A stretch of DNA of 64,000 nucleotides from an uncultured SAR86 cluster bacterium (GTDB taxonomy: Bacteria; Pseudomonadota; Gammaproteobacteria; Magnimaribacterales; AG-339-G14): assembly GCA_902632605.1 (NCBI GenBank), contig CACPDB010000005.1, forward strand, positions 62,001-126,000, read 5' to 3'. Positions 50,537 to 53,379 of this stretch are shown in pieces (within the stretch, counting starts at the first letter, position 1; every line of letters begins with the position of its first letter). The translations under genes and the position numbers were made by a program. The notes beneath the pieces were generated by a model. That model did no database searches and was not told where the DNA came from. It saw only the letters and a program-made list of their open reading frames with translations.

Positions 50537-51304
50537 TCAACTTTCTATTTTAATTTTTACAAAAATAAACAGTTTATAAAATAATCTTGTTAGTTCATTT
50601 AGTATTCTATAGGGCGCCATAATCCAATATCTTTTATAGAGGGGAAACTTGAATTCACTCTTTGCTTGAATATAAGAGTTTCCCAAATGCAATTCTTCCT
50701 TAAGGTGAACCGGGGATGGAGTAATACATAATGATCTTAGGTTTAAGGCCCAGTCCCTATCCATTGCATGATCTATGGGAAGGCTCATTACCCTCATTTT
50801 CTCTAAAAGGTTTTTAGCAGCAAATCTGTTGATCAGATAACACCCAGTTCCAGATTTAAATCCAAAATTCAAAGCAATATAGAATTCTTTATGAATTTTC
50901 TTTAATTTAACAGGCATACCTTTTTCTTTTGTTCTATCACTTCCTCCGCTAAGCCTTAATAAATCAAAATTAATTCCAGAACGTATTGCACAATTGATAA
51001 TTTCAACTATATCTTCTTCAAACTCAATGTCATCTTCACAAACTAAAGCAAAATCTTCTTTGGTATCTAAAAATTTTTTTAAAACATTCAGGTGGCTAAA
51101 ATAACAACCTAATTCTCCAAGATTAGTTCTTTTGCCATGCAGCAAATTATATTTAAGTTCTGAATAATTTTGATGAGGTAAAGATATTTTCTTGCCATCT
51201 ACGGCGACTTCCAATTCAAATTCTATGCCAATTTTCTTGAAGCTCTCTGTTGCAGAAACCAATCTATCATTTGCCCTTTCAAGATTAATTAAATAAACAA
51301 TCAC
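50537..51304 (-). CDS. Glycosyltransferase family 25 (LOS biosynthesis type)
   Basis: IVYLINLERANDRL, LGELGCYFSHLNVLKKFL, FALVCEDDIEFEED. Confidence 0.88.
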   Translation of the reverse strand: MIVYLINLERANDRLVSATESFKKIGIEFELEVAVDGKKISLPHQNYSELKYNLLHGKRTNLGELGCYFSHLNVLKKFLDTKEDFALVCEDDIEFEEDIVEIINCAIRSGINFDLLRLSGGSDRTKEKGMPVKLKKIHKEFYIALNFGFKSGTGCYLINRFAAKNLLEKMRVMSLPIDHAMDRDWALNLRSLCITPSPVHLKEELHLGNSYIQAKSEFKFPLYKRYWIMAPYRILNELTRLFYKLFIFVKIKIES

Positions 51305-51341
51305 TCAAGAAGTATACATGTATACATTGCTCAACTTCTGG

Positions 51342-52949
51342 TTAAGAAGGTAAAAATGCTAACTTCGTTGTCTTTTGAGGATTGTTTGTATCCTGACTAG
51401 CCATATCAACCATACCTCCGACTCCTCTAGCTAGAAGCCACCAAGCAAATAAAGGCCCAAACAGCAAAGCCCATGACAATCTAGAAACCAACTTCACCCC
51501 TGAATCACCCATTACCTGAAAGAAAACCTTTTCAAGTAGTTCTTTAGTAATTCGTCTTCGCAAATAAGCCATTACAAAAGGCCATAATGCAGCAAAAGTA
51601 CTCATGGTTACTCCTCCAACAACTACCTCTTTTGCATTAATAGGCTCCATTTGAGAAATAAGAACTTGTAATTTTTCGTCTGTTATTTCCTCTAAATCTT
51701 TGTTTGTAAAACCACTTCCAAAGACATTAGGATTACCGATGTATAGATCTGCTACTTCATCAGTACTCATAATAGGTAAATCTGGATACTTTGCTAAAGC
51801 ATCTTCAATAATATAGGAGTTATCTGTCGAGATAGCCTTGAGTGAAACTTCTAGTTGCTCATTATTCTCAAAATTATGAAAAGTGATATCTGATCCCGGA
51901 AAAGACTCATCTTTATGCATTTCTGCAGTCCAGTTATCGTTATCAAAATTCTCTTGATCTGATACTAAAATTTCAAACATCTTTCCTTTGATGGTGTTTG
52001 CAGCACCTTCTAACTGTTGACCATCATATTGTTGAAAATGTTCTGATATTTCATCAATCGTTGCTGTTTCACCTAATTGAGCTGACCAACGAAGTCTTAT
52101 GGCTTGAATAAATGTTTCTCCCAATGGACCTTCAAGCTTTTCATGTTGTCCAGCTATGAGGTATGCCATTGCCACAGTGCTAAAAACTTCCCCATTTACT
52201 ATCTTTTGATCTACAGGGAAATCTCCAGTTAAAAAATCTTTTATTCTATTTCCAACAACCTTGAGATTATCTATATTGGCAATATTCTTGATTAAATTCC
52301 ATTGGTGACTAGTGAGATTCTTGGTGTAAGAAAATAATCTATAGAGTTTAATGTCTTGAAAACTCTTAGCGTGAAGTAAATTTTCAAAACCAAACAGAAA
52401 TATTAAACCGAGCATATTTGTCACAAATAACTCAGCAAATATTATTGGGCTATATGGCCACAATACTGAAATCCAAGAAATCAAAATTCCAATCGCTATT
52501 TTAAATATCTCTAAAATTGACAGGATAGTTCCTGCGACCAGACCAAGATAACGGGCAACATCTGTATAGGATTTTATTTCTTTCAAACCAACATATTGCG
52601 CAATCTTGAAGGCCATCCAGAACTCAAAAGCAATTGAAACAAATACTCCTATGCCTAACTTACCAGGAAGGCCTGCTAACACCATATTAATTACAGCTAC
52701 TTTAGTTATTACCCCATAAATATCTGATTCAATTAAATCGTATTTAGTTTTAAAAACACCTTCAAAGGGTTCAAAGACAAACTTTGATACCGGAGTATCA
52801 GAAATTAACTGTTTAACTTTATTGAGATTTTTTTTTAGCCAATCAAAAGCTTCTTTATGAGCCCCTTCATCGTTATAATTCTCAAACTTGCTATCAAAAG
52901 TGTCTTCATATTCAAAGCCACTTTTTTTGCTATTTTCATTTTTAGCCAT
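51342..52949 (-). CDS. Hypothetical multi-TM protein with soluble middle domain (535 aa)
   Basis: Long intact ORF with clusters of hydrophobic segments at both ends; no family recognised by eye. Confidence 0.8.
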   Translation of the reverse strand: MAKNENSKKSGFEYEDTFDSKFENYNDEGAHKEAFDWLKKNLNKVKQLISDTPVSKFVFEPFEGVFKTKYDLIESDIYGVITKVAVINMVLAGLPGKLGIGVFVSIAFEFWMAFKIAQYVGLKEIKSYTDVARYLGLVAGTILSILEIFKIAIGILISWISVLWPYSPIIFAELFVTNMLGLIFLFGFENLLHAKSFQDIKLYRLFSYTKNLTSHQWNLIKNIANIDNLKVVGNRIKDFLTGDFPVDQKIVNGEVFSTVAMAYLIAGQHEKLEGPLGETFIQAIRLRWSAQLGETATIDEISEHFQQYDGQQLEGAANTIKGKMFEILVSDQENFDNDNWTAEMHKDESFPGSDITFHNFENNEQLEVSLKAISTDNSYIIEDALAKYPDLPIMSTDEVADLYIGNPNVFGSGFTNKDLEEITDEKLQVLISQMEPINAKEVVVGGVTMSTFAALWPFVMAYLRRRITKELLEKVFFQVMGDSGVKLVSRLSWALLFGPLFAWWLLARGVGGMVDMASQDTNNPQKTTKLAFLPS

Positions 52950-53027
52950 CTTTAACCTTATTTATAACTTAGAATTTATTCTATGCCATACAGGCTTTTA
53001 AGCAATCCATTAAGGGAAAAGAGAAAA

Positions 53028-53379
53028 TGGTGGAGGCGGCGGGTATCGAACCCGCGTCCATCGATCTATTCCTATCAGCTCTACATGTTTAGATTCATCT
53101 TTTAGTTTCCTATTTTAAATCTCCGATGAGCAGGATAGATAAAAAGTATTCTGTAAAAACTTTTTAGAAAAATCACAGAAAAATTTTCCTAAGCAACCTA
53201 TTGGTCGACTTTCTATTACCTTAATAGGTATGGGGTAAAGAAAGCTAGCCTATTTAAGCGGCTAGAGCGTAGTTTGCTTTATTGCCAACTAATTTTTTTG
53301 AAACTTATTTTTACGAGCAAGTTACAAGCTCGACATGCACTTTAAGTTCAAAAATAGATGTCTAATCCATTTCGCCCCC
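53028..53379 (-). ncRNA. ssrA: tmRNA
   Basis: 5' GGGGGCGAAATGGATTAGACA and 3' GGGTTCGATACCCGCCGCCTCCACCA form the tRNA-like end; tag frame GGC AAT AAA GCA AAC TAC GCT CTA GCC GCT TAA at 53254-53286 = GNKANYALAA; adjacent to smpB. Confidence 0.96.

Follow-up and report, generated by a model that had tools for sequence, protein, structure and literature searches.

The gene behind ssrA and the extent of the insertion

The window, that is, the whole stretch of 64,000 nucleotides of a SAR86 cluster contig analysed here, contains on its minus strand a gene for a 535-aa membrane protein just past the 3′ end of ssrA, as the original prediction had placed it (Table 1). The gene starts with an ATG codon, is co-directional with ssrA and begins 78 bp from the mature ssrA 3′ end; the tmRNA itself carries the tag peptide GNKANYALAA. 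In the genus, rpsT, a gene for a GT25 glycosyltransferase, ssrA and smpB follow each other in direct succession. When the rpsT–ssrA region was compared by blastn with that of 17 relatives, which places the ends of the segment to within a few bases, the 535-aa gene was found to be missing in all 14 congeners with a readable junction, and is thus accessory rather than conserved in this interval. Congener homology in most cases reaches 51304–51320 on the GT25 side and resumes at 53027/53028. At the empty site of most congeners, 0–17 bp separate the homology next to GT25 from the 3′ end of ssrA. The inserted segment of about 1.7 kb carries the 535-aa gene only, and a profile search recovered the full-length protein in one of the 203 genomes of the order. 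The 535-aa gene is a single-gene insertion located exactly behind ssrA and was probably acquired laterally.

The locus had been proposed to be an accessory island at the tmRNA gene, with the GT25 gene as part of it. The insertion does abut the ssrA 3′ end, and relatives lack it, but it consists of one gene and is not an island of the integrase type. Since the GT25 gene is kept at the same site by 13 of the 15 other genomes of the genus, it belongs to the genus core and is not accessory, and the inserted part is only about 51320–53027; in the two congeners without GT25 (L027 and L028), rpsT adjoins ssrA. The inserted segment holds no integrase gene. A search for direct repeats found the ssrA 3′-end stretch 'ggtggaggcggcgggtatcgaacccgcgtcc' once in the window and its 25-base version once in the whole 1.2-Mb assembly, so that there is no duplicated att site, in line with what had been noted at the outset; the insertion junction shares just about two bases (TG). 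Base composition gave no indication of a foreign origin, the gene being unusual neither in GC content (34.5% vs 35.0% for the window) nor in dinucleotides (distance at the 74th percentile). The rpsT–ssrA interval of other genera in the family contains different genes (L030:1800-3821, L031:1092-3236 and L032:1094-1837), for M3-peptidase-like (673 aa), prolyl-oligopeptidase-like (714 aa) and TetR-like proteins as judged by eye, and the interval is therefore a flexible spot at the genus level.

Table 1. Features of the ssrA locus, in coordinates of the window
Feature	Coordinates	Strand	Basis
535-aa membrane protein gene with PDC-M72B / PD-(D/E)xK-like domain	51342..52949	minus	ORF list, PADLOC, full-length homologs
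N-terminal membrane module, residues 75-195, four hydrophobic helices, LAGLPGK-GIG motif	52365..52727	minus	hydropathy, AF2, conservation
PD-(D/E)xK-like domain, residues about 262-434, modelled separately	51648..52166	minus	AF2, Foldseek
E326 codon, first helix of core	51972..51974	minus	E in 29/30 homologs, D in one
D354 codon, 'PD' aspartate	51888..51890	minus	D in 30/30 homologs
S369-L370-K371 codons, position of D/E/Q-x-K motif	51837..51845	minus	homolog alignment
C-terminal hydrophobic region, residues 441-519, two or three helices	51393..51629	minus	hydropathy; AF2 (low confidence here)
ssrA (tmRNA gene), intact, single copy; 3′ end borders insertion	53028..53379	minus	
Whole inserted segment, about 1.7 kb vs empty ssrA-GT25 junction of congeners	51320..53027		blastn and junction reading
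GT25 glycosyltransferase gene, genus-core neighbour, outside insertion	50537..51304	minus	PF01755, E=1.2e-23

Protein layout and the predicted nuclease-fold domain

Hydrophobic clusters near both termini of the protein had been recognized from the start, and hydropathy and the full-length AF2 model both bear them out, with four hydrophobic helices ahead of the PD-(D/E)xK-like domain (75–93, 98–120, 128–163 and 168–194 in the AF2 model) and two or three after it. Because the full-length model is weak (pLDDT 62), the topology of the protein is one that we infer. The protein has no fitting family in Pfam, PHROG or NCBIfam, and the weak PHROG and Pfam matches that it and its relatives do give were rejected as being at chance level.

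Between the membrane parts lie the motifs GKMFEILV (322–329), PGSDITF (351–357) and LEVSLKA (366–372), from which a PD-(D/E)xK-like pattern had been suggested speculatively. A separate AF2 model of residues 262–434 reached a pLDDT of 82.8 and shows the order alpha-beta-beta-beta-alpha-beta, with helices at 310–335 and 379–387 and strands at 340–344, 355–359, 365–371 and 393–395. It places E326 on the first helix, D354 immediately ahead of strand two and K371 where strand three ends, and among 30 diverged homologs K371, like D354, is invariant. Foldseek searches with this domain against the PDB returned mostly PD-(D/E)xK nucleases as top matches, at weak E-values (best 0.024); neighbours include Ecl18kI, Bax1 (probability 0.96), PaqCI (0.87), Hjc, HindIII, influenza PA and Can2. 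Against viral models the best match was a 'restriction endonuclease' (E=9.1e-4, probability 1.00), and VRR-NUC and further PD-(D/E)xK proteins came next; searches with the full-length model were uninformative apart from nuclease matches. Residues 262–434 or thereabouts very probably adopt a PD-(D/E)xK fold, to judge from the model, and the pattern first suggested has gained substance, as fold model and Foldseek neighbours agree and its acidic and Lys positions are conserved. Position 369 is Q in 23 of the 30 homologs, N in two and S in five, namely the window protein and four others that include its closest relatives, and this Ser together with a net charge of −22 calls for caution in assuming nuclease activity. 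Every one of the 30 homologs has a negative net charge in this domain (51648–52127 in the window), ranging from −6 to −28, which is unexpected for a domain that cuts DNA.

Homologs and their genomic positions

PADLOC matched residues 291–432 to PDC-M72B (PDLC04784, E=2.3e-17, profile positions 17–151 of 193), and a second profile, PDLC04785, also matched the protein (E=1.9e-12); on sequence similarity, the central domain is almost certainly homologous to PDC-M72B. The protein had been called an orphan of unrecognised family, which holds with respect to Pfam and NCBIfam but not in view of the PDC-M72B match and of full-length relatives in three phyla. These relatives were found with a profile built from the window protein and one SAR11 homolog; a scan of genome contigs with a single sequence as query had given no match. 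Full-length homologs show 32–50% identity, and over the best segment identity amounts to 51% for a Gracilibacteria MAG, 49% for a gammaproteobacterial MAG, 48% for an Arcobacteraceae MAG and 34–35% for Pelagibacteraceae. Since the relatives come from MAG or single-cell contigs, some contig may be mis-binned, above all the 3.9-kb one assigned to Gracilibacteria. Among the sampled genomes, 9 of 397 from the SAR11 family and 8 of 369 from the window's class had a match, and tblastn located the domain on two alphaproteobacterial plasmids. In a tree, the window protein clusters with its relatives from Gracilibacteria, Arcobacteraceae and the other gammaproteobacterium (100/100), and the SAR11 proteins stand apart, a pattern at odds with species descent. 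A phage origin is not supported, since a viral scan with the profile found no relative and no phage record matched; one IMG/VR match (L002) was discarded as due to chance, being antisense to phage genes. One homolog (G858; L072:118-1723) is split into two overlapping ORFs, by a frameshift or an assembly error.

Several lone copies have a tRNA or tmRNA gene no more than about 130 bp away: at the 3′ end of ssrA in the window, at that of tRNA-Met in G508, at that of tRNA-Thr in AG-313-A04/G560, and upstream of tRNA-Leu in AG-333-I10, G776 and G802. A genome of the window's own order (G1318) encodes a lone 470-aa M72B protein with another membrane module (L079:5330-6742), 127 bp downstream of the tRNA-Phe 3′ end. 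The overall pattern looks like that of a single-gene cargo swapped where the genome is flexible, next to genes for structural RNAs. Full-length SAR11 homologs also recur in one accessory region, from tRNA-Leu(taa) to tRNA-Thr(tgt)/rlmB/tuf (L037, L061, L063, L064 and L065).

Membrane partners and neighbouring defence genes

Membrane modules of no fewer than three kinds are combined with the M72B domain, either fused to it or encoded by the adjacent gene. In the window protein it is fused between the N-terminal four-helix module and the C-terminal hydrophobic region. Elsewhere a PDC-M09A-like glycine-zipper membrane protein stands ahead of it, either fused, as in Yoonia (L004) and G086 (L007), or encoded by the preceding gene, as in Sulfitobacter (L003), G174 (L008) and G872 (L071). 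Yet another module is fused ahead of it in L067, L068 and L079 and encoded by a preceding, overlapping gene in L074; by eye, that of L067, L068 and L074 had appeared DUF697-like, a resemblance dropped when Pfam gave no such match for L067 and L068. The ankyrin partner M72A accompanies M72B at L005 only, with an ankyrin gene likewise beside it at L006, and no M72A is present next to the window gene. Both ankyrin-paired versions are devoid of the N-terminal membrane module and keep the same E, D and K residues. That a nuclease-like domain is combined with interchangeable membrane parts, as in SNIPE, supports the idea that the membrane matters to function. A distant M72B domain was in addition encountered in the middle of a three-gene cassette (about 85, 333 and 316 aa) in two genomes (L076:6308-8491 and L077:1273-3453), which is a candidate for a separate system.

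A number of homologs have defence genes as neighbours. In one SAR11 genome (G398; L011), genes for a DrmMII-type methyltransferase, a 906-aa protein, a NERD-UvrD helicase and DrmA come immediately after that for the full-length homolog, a DISARM-like arrangement. Further homologs are accompanied by a type II restriction enzyme and methyltransferase (G500), by a type III restriction enzyme, a methyltransferase and PDC-S11 (G802), by two C5 methyltransferases and an HNH restriction enzyme (G454), or by a type II CBASS cyclase, E1-E2 and 2TM effector (G086), and the copy on the Sulfitobacter plasmid adjoins DzbA of Dazbog. The nine homolog-bearing SAR11 genomes together contain five C5 methyltransferases (PF00145), four of which, distributed over three genomes, have the homolog no more than about 5 kb away; the rough chance of such proximity at three of four sites is about 4e-6, a figure to be read with the knowledge that the PF00145 family was picked after the loci had been seen. 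The window copy has no defence gene nearby, its neighbours being GT25, rpsT, ssrA and smpB, and L034, L036 and G776 are among several homologs with no defence genes in the flanks that were read. PDCs are candidates identified through co-location ('guilt by embedding'), most of them not validated by experiment (PMC12988326), and in the literature no paper text names PDC-M72. We consider it probable that the 535-aa protein has a defence function. The 906-aa protein (L011:13509-16229), which has no PADLOC match, may be a new DISARM-like component.

Interpretation

Our best reading of the 535-aa protein is that of a stand-alone membrane-tethered defence nuclease, similar to SNIPE in the way it works without being a member of that family; its topology, DNA target, cleavage and defence role are all what we infer. 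Tethering to the membrane would keep the nuclease domain away from the chromosome. DNA delivered at the membrane by a phage or another element would be cut once the domain has been recruited to it or set free to reach it, as has been shown for the unrelated membrane nuclease SNIPE. We see an even chance that the gene is a laterally acquired, single-gene anti-phage system consisting of a membrane-tethered PDC-M72B nuclease-fold protein, and a chance somewhat under even that the protein acts as a membrane-tethered nuclease on incoming DNA. This reading is favoured by the fold model and its Foldseek neighbours, the conservation of E326, D354 and K371, the PADLOC match to PDC-M72B, the defence neighbours, the modular partners, the mobility of the gene and the SNIPE precedent. 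It is weakened by the Ser at 369, the acidic domain, the weak PDB E-values and the poor full-length model, as well as by the window copy and several homologs having no defence neighbours and by PDC-M72B being itself an unvalidated candidate.

It could also be that the protein is an abortive-infection effector, in which the membrane module kills, as a pore or depolariser, once a degenerate and non-cutting PD-(D/E)xK-fold domain has sensed a phage product or DNA end and triggered it. This is the main alternative, and one that we consider rather unlikely. Membrane module and nuclease core are equally conserved (0.44 mean pairwise identity each), the domain is strongly acidic with Ser at 369, and the partner in some relatives is a pore-like glycine-zipper protein matching PDC-M09A, all of which would suit an effector of this kind. 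However, conservation of E326, D354 and K371 in 29–30 of 30 homologs goes beyond the needs of a dead sensor fold, and the same residues are retained at L005 and L006 although the N-terminal membrane module is missing there. The two plasmid-borne relatives, one of which adjoins relaxase and coupling-protein genes, would fit a protein that acts on DNA but is not directed against phages, for instance a barrier to plasmids and conjugation or a device of competition between mobile elements carried as cargo; such a role appears improbable, most relatives being chromosomal and located at tRNA or tmRNA genes or in islands that also carry genes of restriction, CBASS and DISARM-like systems. A membrane protein outside defence, with for example an envelope or stress function, might likewise have hitch-hiked in flexible spots, where island clustering would account for the defence neighbours. 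That the window copy has none of these nearby, and that the PDC label is itself based on co-location (PMC12988326), is in keeping with such a hitch-hiker, but defence neighbours recur in genomes with very few methyltransferases, the distribution over phyla is patchy and the fold is of nuclease type, and we therefore regard it, too, as having little likelihood.

Returning to the membrane-tethered nuclease, one could go further and propose, with more hesitation than for that reading itself, that the members of the family are stand-alone, membrane-tethered defence nucleases of the PD-(D/E)xK kind and form a new class, which attacks entering DNA, has an origin independent of SNIPE, combines a conserved nuclease-fold domain with interchangeable membrane modules and spreads between phyla as one-gene cargo at the tRNA and tmRNA genes of streamlined marine bacteria. 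Such bacteria, SAR11 and its small-genome neighbours among them, have few known defence genes. If the proposal is true, a compact one-gene system common to SAR11, a 1.2-Mb gammaproteobacterium, Gracilibacteria and Arcobacteraceae would help to explain the phage resistance of minimal genomes, and the strategy of cleaving phage DNA at the membrane, discovered recently, would have been reached a second time by an independent route. It also gives the unvalidated candidate PDC-M72B a concrete, testable function.

Comparison with known systems

With PD-(D/E)xK nucleases of the Mrr, Ecl18kI and Bax1 type, which are its top structural neighbours, the domain shares the predicted order of core elements, the D-x14-[S/Q]-x-K spacing and a helix-borne E; it differs in having no detectable sequence similarity to them, Ser at the D/E/Q position in the window protein, a strongly acidic character and a membrane-embedded context. 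Kiwa and Zorya, membrane-embedded systems that target DNA (reviewed in PMC12904381), similarly combine a membrane part with a DNA-acting part, but they are multi-gene systems with other folds, and neither gave a PADLOC match in the window protein. SNIPE is a membrane-bound anti-phage nuclease whose nuclease is the most conserved part and whose membrane-targeting N-terminus is variable (PMC13190303). The window protein resembles it in that a single gene is predicted to encode an inner-membrane protein that has a nuclease-fold domain and membrane regions that vary across the family. In contrast, the nuclease of SNIPE is of the GIY-YIG type and is accompanied by DUF4041 and, as a rule, by just one TM helix; neither GIY-YIG nor DUF4041 gave a Pfam match in the window protein at E<=1, and the fold differs as well. 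The glycine-zipper membrane protein PDC-M09A, with which M72B is paired in Yoonia, Sulfitobacter, G086, G174 and G872, is different from the window module, which does not match it. A likeness in sequence exists to PDC-M72, composed of the ankyrin protein M72A and of M72B, through the M72B match at residues 291–432 with the same E-D-K pattern; whereas PDC-M72 includes M72A, the window locus does without the ankyrin protein and has the domain fused between membrane parts in one 535-aa protein.
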